Shown in pieces: positions 17,284-23,884 of a stretch of 38,672 bases of DNA. The position numbers and the translations under genes are program-made. Origin of the DNA: Xanthomonas axonopodis (GTDB taxonomy: Bacteria; Pseudomonadota; Gammaproteobacteria; Xanthomonadales; Xanthomonadaceae); the NCBI RefSeq assembly GCF_001304695.1, contig NZ_JFAQ01000152.1:1-38672 (forward strand). The letters run 5' to 3'. Numbering within the stretch: position 1 is the stretch's first letter; each line of letters starts with the position of its first letter. Below the pieces are notes generated by a model. The model searched no databases. It saw only the letters and a list, made by a program, of their open reading frames with translations, and was not told where the DNA came from.

Positions 17284-18609
17284 TCAGTTGGAGTGTTTGG
17301 CGTGAGGCGCCAGCGCCTGCACTGCGGCGCCGGCGTTGACCTGCAACTGCCCGTCGGAAACCTTGCTGGTGCGCTGCATGAGTTCGCGCAACGCCTGGGC
17401 ATCCATCGACGGTTGCAGCGACAACAGCAGCGCGGCCATGCCGCTGACATGCGCGGTGGCCATCGACGAGCCGGAGGTGAAGTCGTAGCGGCCGTTCGGT
17501 TGCGTGGTCAGGATGTCCTTGCCGGGCGCGCTGAGCACGCCGGGCATGGCGGGTGTTGCGCTGCTGCTGCGCACCACCAGCACGCCCGGCACATCATTGG
17601 GAAAGCCATCCAGACGCCCGTTCGGTGGCATTGCCGTCACCACGATGCGGCCCTGTTGCACCAGCTGCTGCAGCATCTTGCTCAGCAGCGGGTCGGCGGG
17701 GCCGCCCAGGCTCAGGTTGATCACGCGCGCGGAGCTGTTGTCGATCGCCGCCAGCGCCTTGGCCAGGGTGAAGGTGTTGCAACGTGCGGTGGCGCCGACC
17801 GTGGGCGCGTACCAGCACGCCTTGTAGATACTCAGCATGGCCTTGGGTGCCATGCCGACGATGCCCTGGTGATTGTTGCTGCCGGCGGCAATGATGCCGG
17901 CCACTTCGGTACCGTGCGAATCGGTACTGGTCTTCACCGGTGTGTCGTCGACCAGATCGTGCACCTCGCGGATGCGGGCTTTCAGGTCGGGGTGGTTGGT
18001 GTCCACGCCGGTATCGACCACTGCGATCAGCACGCCGCGGCCCTCGGTCACGGTCTGTGCGCTGGCGGCATCGGTGTCGATAAAGCCGCGTTGCATGTCC
18101 ACGTATGGGTCGTTGTAGCTGGACAGCGAGGTCGTCTTTTCCGACGCATCGGCCGAGAACACCGAAAAGTCCTGCACTGGCTGCACCAGCTCCACACCTT
18201 CGTCGTCGGCCAAGGCACTGACCAGTTCATCGCGCGACACGCCCGGCGGCGGTTGCAGCACAGCGCAATACAGGCCCAGCGAGGTGATTGGCCAGGCCGA
18301 GACTTCGCGCAATTTGTAGCGCTGCTTGATGCTGTCCATGCGCGCGGCCGCCTTCTGGCCGGCACCGTAATAGCTGGACGCGTAGCCGATCAGGCTGGAG
18401 CCGGCGCGGGCCGGTGGCGCGGCGAGCGGGTTGGCCACCGCCAGCAGGATGTCGCGGCTGCTGTCGGGCGTTTGCGCACCGGCCAGTGGCGGTGCGGTAC
18501 CGGCAACCTCCGTCGCCGGCTCCTGGAAGACTGCGGCAGCGTGCGCGTTGGAGGGCGCGCCCAGGGCGGTGAACGCGGCGATCAGGCCAATGGCGAACAG
18601 GCGCTTCAT
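17284..18609 (-). CDS. Secreted subtilisin-like serine protease (S8)
   Basis: The protein has 441 residues. A signal peptide (KRLFAIGLIAAFTALG, cleavage after NAHA) is followed by a prodomain at about 85-150 (LREVSAWPITSLGLYCAV, then GVELVQPVQDF). The catalytic triad is Asp199 (AVVDTGVDTNHPD), His232 (DSHGTEVAGIIA) and Ser382 (FTSGSSMATAHVSG). The oxyanion-hole stretch is unusual: VVTAMPPNG instead of the common AAGN, leaving Asn330 as a displaced candidate. Its ATG overlaps the anti-sigma TGA (ATGA). It lies in one operon with sigma and anti-sigma genes and ends 10 bases before ccmC. It probably acts in the periplasm or outside the cell. A role in controlling the anti-sigma factor is inferred from context and prodomain similarity. 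Confidence 0.9.
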   Translation of the reverse strand: MKRLFAIGLIAAFTALGAPSNAHAAAVFQEPATEVAGTAPPLAGAQTPDSSRDILLAVANPLAAPPARAGSSLIGYASSYYGAGQKAAARMDSIKQRYKLREVSAWPITSLGLYCAVLQPPPGVSRDELVSALADDEGVELVQPVQDFSVFSADASEKTTSLSSYNDPYVDMQRGFIDTDAASAQTVTEGRGVLIAVVDTGVDTNHPDLKARIREVHDLVDDTPVKTSTDSHGTEVAGIIAAGSNNHQGIVGMAPKAMLSIYKACWYAPTVGATARCNTFTLAKALAAIDNSSARVINLSLGGPADPLLSKMLQQLVQQGRIVVTAMPPNGRLDGFPNDVPGVLVVRSSSATPAMPGVLSAPGKDILTTQPNGRYDFTSGSSMATAHVSGMAALLLSLQPSMDAQALRELMQRTSKVSDGQLQVNAGAAVQALAPHAKHSN

Positions 18610-19262
18610 GGGGCCGAGACGATCTCCGCCAGCCGGATGCCCGGGGTGGCGCGTAGTTGCTGCACGGTCTGCCGCGGTTGGGCCGGGGGCTGCGGTGCGG
18701 CAGGCACCACGGTGTAGGCACCCATTTCGTTGGGCCCGCCGACCACCTGCAACTGCTGCGCATGCAGCAGCCGGTCCCAGTCGGCCACGGTCATCCTTGC
18801 GTCCGGCACCACGCGGATGGCGCCCTGCGGCACCGGCAGGGCCGCGACGCTGCTGAGCGTGCGATAGTCGTGCGATGGCGCGGGCAAGGCCAGCTTGATG
18901 CCCATCACGCCCAGCCCGATGGCCTGGACCAGCGCCGCGGCGGCCAGGGCGCGTACCGTCCAACTGCCGGAGCGGCGCGCGGCGGGCACGTGCGAAGGCG
19001 CACTGCGCTGCTCCGGTGCATCCAGGCGGCCGAGCAGGCGTTGCAGACCGGCGTTCGGGTCCAGCTTCACTGTCGACGGCAGCGCCAAGGCCTGGCGCAG
19101 GCGGTTCTGCTGGGCGAATTCGGCGCTACACGAGGCGCACTTGGCCACGTGCGCGATCAGCCAGGTGTTTTCTTCCTCGGTGGCACTGTCCAGCAGCACC
19201 GCCGGCATCAATTCCCAGGCGTGCGAGCATTCCTTGCCAGGCGCGATGAAAAACGTCTTCAT
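18606..19262 (-). CDS. Zinc-finger transmembrane anti-sigma factor
   Basis: The protein has 218 residues. Cytoplasmic residues 1-100 hold the zinc-finger anti-sigma signature H38-x3-C42-x2-C45 (AHVAKCASC). A TM follows at about 103-126 (VRALAAAALVQAIGLGVMGI). The periplasmic tail at about 148-215 (AIRVVPDARMTVADWDRLL, LQVVGGPNEMGAYTVV, LRATPGIRLAEIV) resembles an I9-type subtilase prodomain. It also parallels the prodomain of the protease encoded next. It would hold the ECF sigma factor encoded just upstream at the membrane. ATGA overlaps join it to both neighbours. ATG 19262 was chosen for that overlap. Confidence 0.87.
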   Translation of the reverse strand: MKTFFIAPGKECSHAWELMPAVLLDSATEEENTWLIAHVAKCASCSAEFAQQNRLRQALALPSTVKLDPNAGLQRLLGRLDAPEQRSAPSHVPAARRSGSWTVRALAAAALVQAIGLGVMGIKLALPAPSHDYRTLSSVAALPVPQGAIRVVPDARMTVADWDRLLHAQQLQVVGGPNEMGAYTVVPAAPQPPAQPRQTVQQLRATPGIRLAEIVSAP

Positions 19263-19852
19263 TGCAGGGTCTCCGTGTAAGGGGCACCGCCGGCCAGGCC
19301 GGGCAGCACATTGCGTAGTTTGACCCGGGCATGGAACAGCCGGGCTTTGATGGTGCCAACCGGGCACTGCATGATGTCGGCCACTTCTTCGAGCGTGTGG
19401 CCGACGCCGTAGACCAGTTCGACGACCAGGCGCTGGTCCGGCGACAACCGTTCCATGCCCTTGTCCAGCCAGTCGCGCAGTTCGCGGTCGTCGTTGTCGT
19501 CGGCGCTGGGGGCGTGGTCTTCCACCAGCGCGGTGTCGTCGATGGCTTCGCCGTCATGCTGGCGCAGGCACTTGAGTCCGCAGCGGTAGGCGATGCCCAT
19601 GATCCAGGTGGACACCTGCGAGTCGCCGCGGAAGTCGCCGGCCTTTTGCCAGGTGATCCAGAAGCAATCGTTGATGGCCTCTTCGATGATGTCCGGGCGG
19701 CGGGTCAGCCGCGACAGGAAGCGACACAGCCGGCCGTGATAGCTGTGGTACATGCTGGCCAGCGCGTCGCGATCGCCCCCGGCCATGCGGCGCAACAGCA
19801 TGCGGTCGGTGGCATCGCCTAGAGTGTCGGTGTCATTCATTCGTGCAGGCAT
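19259..19852 (-). CDS. ECF-family RNA polymerase sigma factor
   Basis: The protein has 197 residues. Region 2 is at about 25-95 (DRDALASMYHSYHGRLCRFL, EEAINDCFWITWQKAGDFRG, STWIMGIAYR). An acidic linker follows. Region 4 is at about 135-185 (MERLSPDQRLVVELVYGVGH, TLEEVADIMQCPVGTIKARL). It would direct polymerase to a small regulon when released by the anti-sigma factor that follows. ATG 19852 is used; ATG 19840 (MNDTDTLG) is equally possible, since neither has a clear ribosome site. No matching auto-regulated promoter could be picked upstream. Confidence 0.92.
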   Translation of the reverse strand: MPARMNDTDTLGDATDRMLLRRMAGGDRDALASMYHSYHGRLCRFLSRLTRRPDIIEEAINDCFWITWQKAGDFRGDSQVSTWIMGIAYRCGLKCLRQHDGEAIDDTALVEDHAPSADDNDDRELRDWLDKGMERLSPDQRLVVELVYGVGHTLEEVADIMQCPVGTIKARLFHARVKLRNVLPGLAGGAPYTETLQ

Positions 19853-19903
19853 GGCGGGTCACCAACGTCAGTGCGCGCAGGCAGGCAAAAGGTTGCGTGT
19901 GGA

Positions 19904-20626
19904 TCAGAAGGTTCTGGCGACCGTGCCCAGCCACGGCATGTCGCCGGGGCCGCCCTGCATGCGCGGGGTATTGCCGCTGGTCAGGATGCGCTCGGCTTTC
20001 AGTGTCCATCCGGCGCGGTTCCACTTCAGGCCCACTTGACCGTACTGATAGCTGCCGGAGCGCGCTGCACCGTAGGCCATGGCCGGAAAGCGCGACGAGC
20101 CGGCACCGAGCGACAGGCTGAAATCGTTGCGCAGCGGGACGTTGGCAGTGACGTCGAAGGCCACGTTCCACGGCGACTGGTCGGCCCGCGGAAAATTGAA
20201 GGTGGACAGCGACAACGTCAGCAGATCGCGGTAGGACCAGGCCAGGCTGGCTTCCTGGCGGTCAAAGGTGGGCGTGGCGCGGTCGGTCGGATAGCCGTAG
20301 TAGAGCAGGCTGGCCTGCATCTGCCAGCGGTCGTCCAGCATCCAGGCACGCCCGACCTGAGCGGTGACCGCGACCGGATCGCTCCAGGTGCGGGCCTGCA
20401 GCGCCACCGAGGTGGACACCGACCAGCCGGGGGCGGGCAGCCAATAGCCGGCGGCCTGCACGGTGACCTTGTTGTGCGCGATCGAGATGCCACGGTCGAT
20501 CAGGCTGGAGGTTACGGCCACAGCACCGCCGAAGTCCTTGGCCAGGGCGCTGGCGCAGGAGCCGGCCGCCAGCGTGAGCAGCAACCACTGCAGCAGCGTG
20601 CGGCCCCGGCGTGGTTGGCGACGCAC
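19904..20626 (-). CDS. Predicted outer-membrane beta-barrel protein, function unknown
   Basis: About 240 residues from GTG 20626, chosen because it places a standard signal peptide (TLLQWLLLTLAAGSCASALA) near the start. The frame is open to a TTG at 20785, but that N-terminus is Pro/Arg-rich and unlike a leader. The mature part alternates polar and hydrophobic residues with repeated aromatic strand ends (AAGYWLPAPGW, MQASLLYYGYP, WSYRDLLTLSLS, YQYGQVGLKW). It ends in Phe (TVARTF), the usual barrel C-terminus. A beta-barrel of about 10-12 strands fits. It lies downstream of the cytochrome genes with a 487-base gap and just upstream of the sigma factor gene. Substrate unknown. Confidence 0.75.
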   Translation of the reverse strand: MRRQPRRGRTLLQWLLLTLAAGSCASALAKDFGGAVAVTSSLIDRGISIAHNKVTVQAAGYWLPAPGWSVSTSVALQARTWSDPVAVTAQVGRAWMLDDRWQMQASLLYYGYPTDRATPTFDRQEASLAWSYRDLLTLSLSTFNFPRADQSPWNVAFDVTANVPLRNDFSLSLGAGSSRFPAMAYGAARSGSYQYGQVGLKWNRAGWTLKAERILTSGNTPRMQGGPGDMPWLGTVARTF

Positions 20627-21113
20627 CTGCGGTTGGCATGGTTGCTGGGCGGGCGCGGTCGGCTGCGTCTGGCAAGGTGTGCGGCGTGCGGCAATGTCCA
20701 GCAGTGCGCCCACGAAGAAGCCAGCGCGGGCGCAGTGGCGTCGCGGTCGGAAGGGGAAGCGCTTGGAAGCTGGAACGGTGGGCAATGGCGTGGGCGGGTG
20801 TCAAACAGGGACGCGATGGTGCCCTAGGTCGGCGGATGAGACCATCGCGGCGGCGGCGACTGCGTCCGTATACGCGAAGGCACCGCGTCGGGCAATGCAG
20901 ATCCATCCTGGCCTGCCGGGTGGCGGCCGCCTGACAGGCTGCCGCCGCTGGACGCGTTGGCAACCGACTCAGCCACGCCACCAGCGAGCCAAGCGGCGCA
21001 GGTGTGCCCGCGCTGCAGACGACCGGGACCGCGGGCATGCACGCGCGTTGCGATTGGCGCGCCATCCGTCCGCCCCCTCCGGACGACGACGCGCCATGCT
21101 GCGTTGGCCGCGC
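20627..21113. other. Intergenic region between cytochrome c and outer-membrane protein genes
   Basis: This 487-base spacer has no supported gene. It holds the 9-base inverted repeat listed separately, a hairpin CGTCCG/CGGACG (21067-21085, no T run) just past the cytochrome c stop, and a GGCGGC/GCCGCC pair near 20927. The promoter of the outer-membrane gene should lie here, but none was identified. Confidence 0.5.
20812..20849. promoter_or_regulatory. 9-base inverted repeat with 20-base spacer
   Basis: CGCGATGGT (20812-20820) and ACCATCGCG (20841-20849) are perfect complements, about 190 bases upstream of the outer-membrane protein start. It could be a regulator site with half-sites two turns apart centre to centre, or an RNA hairpin. 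No T tract follows, so an intrinsic terminator is unlikely. Confidence 0.3.
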
Positions 21114-21532: not shown

Positions 21533-22876
21533 TCAGAAGGCCAGGTTGACCGACAGAGTGAAGCTGTCGAGATCGCGCGGATTGGTGATCGGCGGGCCAC
21601 GGAAGACGTTGGAGGTGCTGCCGTTGAACTTGTCGAAACGGAACCAGCCGGCGGACAGGCGCAGGTTGGCCATCGAGGTGTAGGTGCCGTCCTTGCCGAA
21701 CGGGGTCCAGTACAGCAGGACCAAATTGCTGGTGGTGTCCGGGATACCCACCGGCGAATAGCGCGCCGCATCGAACGAGCCGCTATTGATCATGTGCGCG
21801 GCCAGCACGCCGTAGGTCTGCTTGAAGGCGTAGTTCATGCTGAGGGTCTGATCGCGGACGCTGCCCCGGTCCAGCGCCGGCATGGTGGGATCGGTCGACA
21901 TCAGCGGGCTGCCGTATTTGCGACGCTCGTAGATATTGACGTAGGCCAGCGACAGCACGTGCTCGCGGGTGCCGAGGAATTGGTAGGTCAGGTCGTAGCC
22001 GAAATCGGTGAGGTCGTCGCTGGGTCCGGTGCGCAGCGGCTGGCGGCGCGTAGTGAGCGCGGTCAGGCCTACCGAGAAGAACTGGCGCTTCATGTCCTTC
22101 ATATAGGCAAGACGCGCGTAGCTGGTGCCGCTGAGCTTGCCCGGGTCGCCATTGACCGGCCAGCCGAGGCGGTCCTGCGCAGACGGCGACAGCGCGCTAT
22201 AGCTACCCACTTCACCGTACCAGTTGCGGTCGTACAGGCCGTAGACGCTGGCACCGATGACGCGGTTGGACAACGCCGAGGAGCTGAGCATGGTGGAGGC
22301 GCCACCATTGGAGGCGGGGGTGAGCGTGGAGGCATTCGGCAACACGTGCACCGGGTCGGAAATGCCCGGATTGTTGTTGACGCTGACGCCGATCATGGTG
22401 TCCTTGCCCGCCATCTGGAACGGCTTGCTGACAAAGCGCAGATCGATGTCGTCCAGGCGCGTGTCGAAGGTCGCATTGCCGCTGTTGTTGGAGCGGATCT
22501 TCGAATAGCCACCGATGTTGTCGCTGAGGCGGCCGCCCAGATACAGATCGGCTTCGCGCAGACGCGAGGTGCTGTCGCCACGGCTGGGGTTGTTGCGCGA
22601 CCAGGTGAGCTGGCCGGACACCGGGATCTTGGTGCCTTCGCCATCGGTATCGGTAAAACCACCGAGCTTGAAGCGCATGCCGTAGGGCGTGAGCAAGGGG
22701 CCATAGGAACCGACATGGCAATCGGCGCAGGACGAGCCGGTCTGGCGCGCGAACGAGGGAATCGCCTGCGCCTGCGTACTGGCCAGTAGCAACAAGGGGC
22801 CGGACACGCACAACAAGGACGTCAGGCAGGCGGTACGCGTCGCGGTGCAACGCGGGGCGGGCTGGAAAGCGGGCAT
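21533..22876 (-). CDS. Fused heme c / outer-membrane porin, Cyc2-like
   Basis: The protein has 447 residues. A signal peptide ends at AQA (38). It is followed at once by IPSFARQTGSSCADCH, giving one heme site at C50-AD-C53-H54, then LLTPYGMRFKLGGFT. The rest is a predicted barrel of about 16 strands (VSGQLTWSRN, ADLYLGGRL, RLAYMKDMKRQFFSVGL, YDLTYQFLGTREHVLSLAYV) ending in FTLSVNLAF. The arrangement, length and the PSFARQTGxxCxxCH...LTPxGxxFKLxG pattern match what I recall of the Cyc2 outer-membrane cytochrome-porins of iron oxidisers. The substrate here is not known, and iron oxidation is not implied by sequence alone. The long frame open to 23845 is an overrun. It lies between b561 and cytochrome c genes. 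Confidence 0.85.
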   Translation of the reverse strand: MPAFQPAPRCTATRTACLTSLLCVSGPLLLLASTQAQAIPSFARQTGSSCADCHVGSYGPLLTPYGMRFKLGGFTDTDGEGTKIPVSGQLTWSRNNPSRGDSTSRLREADLYLGGRLSDNIGGYSKIRSNNSGNATFDTRLDDIDLRFVSKPFQMAGKDTMIGVSVNNNPGISDPVHVLPNASTLTPASNGGASTMLSSSALSNRVIGASVYGLYDRNWYGEVGSYSALSPSAQDRLGWPVNGDPGKLSGTSYARLAYMKDMKRQFFSVGLTALTTRRQPLRTGPSDDLTDFGYDLTYQFLGTREHVLSLAYVNIYERRKYGSPLMSTDPTMPALDRGSVRDQTLSMNYAFKQTYGVLAAHMINSGSFDAARYSPVGIPDTTSNLVLLYWTPFGKDGTYTSMANLRLSAGWFRFDKFNGSTSNVFRGPPITNPRDLDSFTLSVNLAF

Positions 22877-23580: not shown

Positions 23581-23884
23581 CTGATCTGTCTTCCGGTGGT
23601 GGTCGTTGGTTCCGGCTGCGCGCTGCGCTGCCAGGCCTGGCTCCCCACGCCGGCCGAACGGCGGCCAGGCGAACGTGCACCGATGGGTGCGGCGATGTCG
23701 GAAAAAGGTTGCGTCGCCGTGGCATCTGGTTTGCACGTGCTGCACACCAAAGTGCTGCGACACGGTCAGCTGCGCTTGCGCGCACAGCGCGTCGCAGGGC
23801 CGCGGCCGCGCGCAACCTTTCGCGCAACCCGACGCACTCAGGCATGTCGCACTACGTGCAGTCAGCGGTTACGCCTCTCCGATC
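23581..23884. other. Divergent intergenic region between b561 operon and glycan cluster
   Basis: This 304-base spacer should hold promoters for both the leftward cytochrome genes and the rightward glycan cluster. AAAGGTTGCG (23704-23713) and CGCAACCTTT (23811-23820) form a perfect 10-base inverted pair about 100 bases apart. No convincing -35/-10 boxes or genes were seen. Confidence 0.5.

Follow-up and report, generated by a model that had tools for sequence, protein, structure and literature searches.

An operon of three genes in Xanthomonas axonopodis (contig NZ_JFAQ01000152.1; 38,672 nucleotides, the whole of which is referred to here as the window) encodes a sigma factor of the extracytoplasmic function (ECF) group, a membrane-bound anti-sigma factor, and an S8 protease, or subtilase. 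The periplasmic tail of the anti-sigma factor is very probably a homologue of the subtilase prodomain, the segment that a protease of this kind removes from itself during maturation, and the tail and the prodomain of the co-encoded protease probably share a common ancestry. The tail may work by docking the protease beside a copied cleavage motif, a reading to which a probability of approximately 0.55 is assigned. The computed support comes from homology, fold, the conservation of the operon, the conservation of the linker motif and its association with S8 genes, and promoter-like sites. The features of the operon are as follows.

19259..19852, minus strand: ECF sigma factor gene, 197 amino acids, with Pfam matches to Sigma70_r2 and Sigma70_r4
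18606..19262, minus strand: anti-sigma factor gene, 218 amino acids, with zf-HC2 and an ATGA overlap at either end
19128..19229, minus strand: zf-HC2 anti-sigma domain, anti-sigma residues 12-45 (Pfam)
18888..18965, minus strand: predicted membrane helix, anti-sigma residues 100-125 (helix in the AlphaFold2 model; hydrophobic stretch, by eye)
18852..18866, minus strand: linker motif Y133-R-T-L-S137 of the anti-sigma factor, with predicted cleavage at L136/S137 (alignment conservation, motif statistics)
18609..18821, minus strand: periplasmic tail of the anti-sigma factor, residues 148-218, subtilase-prodomain-like (profile comparison and model)
17284..18609, minus strand: S8 (subtilase) protease gene, 441 amino acids (Pfam Peptidase_S8, 132 bits)
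18169..18453, minus strand: protease prodomain, residues 53-147 (model elements E54-59 to E139-144)
18154..18168, minus strand: predicted protease autoprocessing site F148-S-V-F151/S152 (pattern across type-a clusters, that is, those with the window's type of protease)
17356..18042, minus strand: protease catalytic domain, residues 190-418, with D199, H232, and S382, and P329 at the position of the oxyanion-hole Asn (alignment)

The anti-sigma tail and the subtilase prodomain

The comparison of 13 tails with 13 prodomains, those of the window included, gave an hhalign probability of 52% (P 1.5e-4). The profiles of the relatives, built from 118 tails, of which the program's filter retained 87, and from 101 prodomains, with the window sequences excluded from both and 9 protease sequences with no match to the prodomain model excluded from the second, gave a probability of 83%, with a score of 32.0 and a P of 8.6e-6. 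As controls for this score, the best of 200 column shuffles reached 20.2, and the reversed profile 9.4.

The Pfam family PF22148, which represents the N-terminal prodomain of fervidolysin, matches 8 of the 13 tails and 3 of the 13 protease prodomains at an E of up to 5, with best values of 9.5e-6 and 0.022, respectively. In a more varied set of 25 tails, seven of which also belong to the first set, 10 match (E up to 1; best 1.8e-5). The window's own tail, searched singly against Pfam, has no match to this family. No match to Inhibitor I9 (PF05922) was found in the anti-sigma factor or protease of the window, or in the 13 tails and 13 prodomains, up to an E of 5, nor in the 25 diverse tails up to an E of 1. 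By sequence, then, the tail family appears to be nearer to PF22148 than to I9, and membership of the I9 family was dropped. In profile sequence searches of solved structures with the tail and the prodomain, no subtilase prodomain was found among the matches, and the best of these appear to be fortuitous (tail, E 0.28; prodomain, E 0.003, to a chloroplast PsbY chain).

The AlphaFold2 model of the tail is a beta-alpha-beta-beta-alpha-beta domain, which superimposes on solved prodomains, and subtilase prodomains are its best structural matches. The modelled prodomain of the protease presents its elements in the same order, and the best Foldseek match of the protease model is the unprocessed pro-subtilisin E (414 columns). 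The original prediction had recognized by eye a similarity of sequence and layout between the tail and the prodomain, and had referred both to the I9 type. All four of the sequence strings that it quoted are found in the proteins, at about the residues it gave, the similarity is above chance when the profiles are aligned and compared with shuffled controls, and the layout is reproduced by the two models, in which the tail has a prodomain-like rather than an unrelated fold. The part of its interpretation that stands is the relationship with subtilase prodomains, by PF22148 and by fold, and the conserved operon, whereas the I9 label gives way to PF22148.

Conservation of the operon

The genes are arranged on the minus strand in the order sigma factor, anti-sigma factor, and protease, all three being connected by two 4-base ATGA overlaps, and the coordinates of the open reading frames and the Pfam matches agree with the original prediction on this point. 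The anti-sigma factor belongs to the zf-HC2 membrane type, given a domain score of 25.7 bits, above the curated Pfam cut-off of 22.2, an ECF sigma gene directly upstream, and a single membrane helix.

Relatives of the anti-sigma factor occur in 48 of the 297 genomes of the family, the window's own included. A scan of the genome contigs confirmed 94 places, of which 80 loci were kept, spanning Xanthomonas, Lysobacter, Dyella, Rhodanobacter, Luteibacter, and their kin. The sigma factor and the tail are found in all 80 loci and the S8 protease in 78, the remaining two being at contig ends, and the 4-base overlap between the anti-sigma and protease genes is present in 71 of these 78. The window's own genome (G000) has 12 places with sigma region 4 and 14 with S8, and this locus is their sole pairing.

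A search with the tail profile matched 22 of 369 genomes of the class and 37 of 398 genomes of the phylum, with the window's own genome in both samples. Fifty-seven tail loci were fetched from these searches, comprising 45 with an S8 gene, five with a C14 caspase, four with neither, two at contig edges (L080 and L091), and one spurious case (L239, a frame of 1012 amino acids, which is counted in the 57 loci and in the 153, and excluded from the 51 clusters analyzed below); L048, with only a weak anti-sigma match, was excluded from the tail set. The S8 gene is usually just downstream, although it lies upstream of the sigma gene in L209 and L213, and the tail gene is on the opposite strand in L223. 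The conservation of the sigma factor, anti-sigma factor, and protease as an operon is supported by these counts.

The linker motif as a proposed copy of the predicted autoprocessing site

The linker between the membrane helix and the tail carries a motif that the original prediction had not noted. In the alignment of 56 sequences, the commonest residue accounts for 100, 92, 100, 94, and 100% of the Y-R-T-L-S columns, while no residue exceeds 73% in any of the remaining columns between anti-sigma positions 126 and 146. The first form of the motif, [YFW]xx[LFYM][SAGT], occurs 107 times in the linkers of the 118 relatives, against 7.3 on shuffling. The motif was widened to [FYWM]xx[LAFYM][SGAT] after the phylum loci were added, a post hoc choice, and this form is present in 39 of the 41 clusters with S8 (9.0 expected) compared with two of the 10 without it (2.3 expected), 51 clusters in all. 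The association between motif and S8 gives a Fisher value of 2.9e-6, or 3.2e-6 when the contig-end loci L080 and L091 are omitted, as they were solely from this second test; the match in L089 (MPEAT) looks spurious, yet is counted. In the clusters held out from the phylum, the original form is found in four of four with a type-a S8 protease and in none of the four without S8.

The same pattern is seen at the predicted autoprocessing site that ends the prodomain of the protease. In the 26 type-a clusters, the P4 residue is always aromatic (F in 14, Y in 12), P1 is mostly L or Y (11 and 10, respectively), and a Q or E stands eight residues ahead of P1 in every case, which is also the spacing from Glu69 to Tyr77 in the prosegment of subtilisin BPN'. 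When the linker and the autoprocessing site of each locus are paired, 11 of the 26 pairs have the same P1' residue, compared with 5.3 when permuted (p 0.0018, for one of five positions and with kinship ignored), and no such agreement was found in these pairs at P4, P3, P2, or P1. The resemblance of the linker motif to the predicted autoprocessing site, and its near confinement to S8 loci, lend indirect support to the cutting of the anti-sigma factor by the protease, one of the alternatives raised by the original prediction.

Possible docking or inhibition by the tail

In the structural alignment, residue 218 of the tail aligns with residue 74 of 1spb_P and residue 73 of POIA1. The P1 residue of the BPN' prosegment, which fills the S1 pocket, is taken to be residue 77, and the modelled tail of the window would thus stop about three residues before the S1-filling position, which favours docking, in the case of the window, over the plugging of the active site. 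Residue E213 of the tail is invariant across the 56 aligned sequences, and would fall on Glu69 of BPN', which we take to be an interface residue, if the alignment of the ends is ungapped.

The tail may also be understood, along the lines of another alternative in the original prediction, as a membrane-tethered inhibitor or folding helper, through which the level or occupancy of the protease would feed back on the sigma factor while the anti-sigma factor stays uncut. The length of the tail bears on this directly: it ends fewer than eight residues past the E213 column in 27 of the 41 S8 clusters, and is longer, as an inhibitor might be, in the other 14, although the placement of this column is less certain in the distant tails. 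A general rule that the tail ends before P1 was abandoned, as it holds in just these 27 clusters. Inhibition is nevertheless unlikely, given the short tail of the window's clade, and the fact that it leaves both the conservation of the linker motif and its rarity in the absence of S8 unexplained.

The protease and the divergent relatives

The protease of the window has, in addition to its Pfam domain, the triad of D199, H232, and S382, and the catalytic residues are conserved throughout the alignment of its relatives (Asp in 111 of 111, His in 111 of 111, and Ser in 109 of 111, with two gaps). Its N-terminus bears a signal-like segment (by eye). A simple pattern finds a lipobox-like sequence near the N-terminus in 51 of 78 partner proteases, which suggests that many of them may be anchored to the membrane, whereas none is apparent, by eye, in the protease of the window.

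A number of findings weigh against the docking and cutting of the anti-sigma factor by the protease. The oxyanion-hole Asn is absent, as the AAGN of thermitase aligns with AMPP in the window (P329, codon 17623-17625, minus strand). On inspection, AGN is missing from the oxyanion loop in all 26 type-a clusters, although L220 has a nearby Asn; a pattern flagged AGN in a single type-a cluster, L212, but this match is near the C-terminus, and the loop of L212 reads AADPQ. A second type of S8 protease, type-b (L046, L081, L082, L084-L087, L093-L095, L206, and others), shares the same family of anti-sigma tails, often has a long region ahead of the prodomain, and retains AGN, in 14 of 15 clusters by pattern and in the fifteenth, L095, as ASAGNGG by inspection. 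The original form of the linker motif is absent from all eight of the held-out clusters with a type-b protease, many of which carry [FY]xTAS or [FY]xIAG instead, so that the motif holds firmly with proteases of the window's type and more loosely with others. The five caspase-linked relatives, described below, are a further complication. In human PC1/3, a change at the oxyanion Asn slowed the removal of the prodomain while allowing it, and left the secreted enzyme inactive (PMC4182778). Given this precedent and the missing Asn, the type-a enzyme may be slow and dependent on docking, or a mere binding partner.

If it were only a binding partner, the S8 protein of the window's clade would be receptor-like, with little activity in trans, and would bind the tail and expose the linker to some other periplasmic protease, which would make the site-1 cut. 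The missing Asn of the type-a proteases and the N309K change in PC1/3 (PMC4182778) are consistent with this, as is RsiV, in which an enzyme binds the anti-sigma factor and its muramidase activity is dispensable (PMC4183432). The conserved Asp, His, and Ser, together with an autoprocessing-like motif in 26 of 26 type-a clusters, suggest selection for catalysis, and the type-b proteases that share the tail family retain AGN, which makes a purely receptor-like role improbable.

The C14 caspases are found in the region of five of the 57 tail loci, in L089, L225, L230, and L233 by Pfam, and in L237 by motif only, and the sigma model found no sigma gene in L230 or L233. In these loci, the S8-type motif is absent from the linkers, apart from the probably spurious match in L089, and the linkers contain Arg, for example, TRGAAG, TRGGRAG, and MRGAG (by eye). 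Bacterial caspase homologues generally prefer Arg, a preference that these linkers fit. Because the same tail family occurs beside caspase genes, an exclusive link between the tail and S8 was rejected. The loci with neither S8 nor caspase are L074, L077, L083, and L088, three of which come from one family and lie near carAB-like genes, two of them also near a Gfo/Idh-like gene (by eye).

These nine loci, together with the frequency of ferredoxin-like folds among the structural matches of the tail, would also be expected if the tail were a general ferredoxin-like sensor domain that never interacts with the protease, which would merely be an output gene of the operon. This is unlikely, given that the best structural matches are subtilase prodomains, that the tail profile resembles the prodomains of the partners themselves, that an S8 gene is close by in 45 of the 57 loci, and that the linker motif tracks S8.

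A proposed sequence of events

In the preferred reading, we infer the docking and cleavage, the order of the events, the signal, and the use of RseP/ClpXP-type proteases. The partner protease would be exported as a zymogen, and would release itself by cutting [FY]xx[LYF]/[ASGT], where its own prodomain ends. Once the prodomain has gone, the mature protease would dock on the anti-sigma tail at the same place, where the YRTLS linker, which precedes the tail's first strand, would act as a copy in trans of the autoprocessing site. The cut at L136/S137 would then be the site-1 step, and the destruction of the anti-sigma factor would be completed by the usual intramembrane and cytoplasmic proteases of the RseP/ClpXP type. 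The freed sigma factor would switch on its own operon, the cytochrome b561 operon, and the polysaccharide cluster.

A broader version of this reading, put forward tentatively and with somewhat less than even odds, is that the whole module of self-release, prodomain and cleavage site together, was copied from the zymogen onto the anti-sigma factor, and that the transcription switch thereby signals when freed, active protease is present. Such a module would be tunable, with a minority of lineages having exchanged the S8 protease and the aromatic-x-x-Leu/Ser motif for a caspase-like enzyme and Arg linkers.

A promoter-like element and the predicted regulon

A promoter-like element of the form GCAACCTT-N14-G[CT]ACT[TG]A is found upstream of the sigma gene in the relatives. 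The upstream regions were available for 77 of the 80 loci, and GCAACCTT is present in 20 of 21 (L153-L175) and in 40 of 53 (L098-L151). Three sites were recognized in the window.

19868..19896, minus strand: predicted promoter GCAACCTT-N14-GCACTGA before the sigma operon (conserved upstream of sigma in relatives)
23684..23712, minus strand: second promoter-like site, before the cytochrome b561 gene (pattern match)
23812..23840, plus strand: third promoter-like site, before FdtA (23885) and the polysaccharide cluster (pattern match)

These are the three matches at up to two mismatches, against 0.16 expected, although the first helped to define the pattern, so that its own match is no test. In the whole genome, at two mismatches, matches to the pattern (11) do not outnumber those to its reversed control (23), and only the best sites therefore count. 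The ending of the pattern was changed to GYACTSA to fit the FdtA site, with at most one mismatch, and this form occurs in 34 of the 35 congeneric genomes, at 111 sites in total compared with 26 for the control. The only congeneric genome with no such site, G285, is also the only listed genome of the genus without the anti-sigma factor, which 17 have.

The Pfam matches near the second and third sites include cytochrome b561, cytochrome c, FdtA, a hexapeptide transferase, a DegT aminotransferase, polysaccharide export, and a glycosyltransferase. The shared element predicts a putative regulon formed by the sigma operon itself, the operon of cytochrome b561 and cytochrome c, and the polysaccharide cluster. 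The stretch that separates the cytochrome b561 gene from the sigma gene contains two genes recognized by eye, with no Pfam match: a porin-like gene (19907-20722, minus strand) and an outer-membrane-like gene with CxxCH (21536-22855, minus strand).

Significance and comparison with known systems

If the preferred reading is true, this would be a widespread design of bacterial signalling, in which the protease recognizes its substrate by means taken over from its own maturation. It would represent a bacterial counterpart to the subtilase-driven site-1 cleavage of animals, exemplified by S1P and SREBP, would predict the cleavage sites of many uncharacterized ECF systems, and would suggest a function for a clade of proteases with an altered oxyanion hole. 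No anti-sigma factor with a prodomain-like tail was found in the open-licence literature, as judged by titles and the openings of abstracts. Subtilase domains have been described in the genetic context of the ECF gene in the subtilase-linked group ECF54 (PMC8999054). A group of ECF factors with neighbouring S8 genes may already have been published.

The RseA-DegS-RseP system of Escherichia coli sigma-E is alike in its ECF sigma factor, one-helix anti-sigma factor, and periplasmic serine protease, the type expected for site 1. It differs in its protease, as DegS belongs to the HtrA type and carries a PDZ domain (PMC8103513), whereas in the present system the anti-sigma factor and an S8 enzyme have a prodomain-type module in common, and regulated intramembrane proteolysis is only proposed. 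In the RsiV-lysozyme system (sigma-V) of Bacillus subtilis, the ectodomain of the anti-sigma factor is likewise a receptor for an enzyme, but the enzyme is external and signal peptidase makes the cut (PMC4183432), while here the candidate cutter is co-encoded. The Craspase system (Csx29, Csx30, and CASP-sigma) also combines a dedicated protease with a sigma factor and a protein that resembles an anti-sigma factor; its protease is an RNA-activated CHAT (caspase-like) enzyme, and the available part of its description does not mention a prodomain mimic (PMC10028731). The prodomains of the fervidolysin-type and I9 subtilases, and free inhibitors such as POIA1, share the fold of the tail, and the tail relatives match PF22148; here, however, the module is fused behind the membrane helix of an anti-sigma factor, and the cleavage-like motif precedes rather than follows it.

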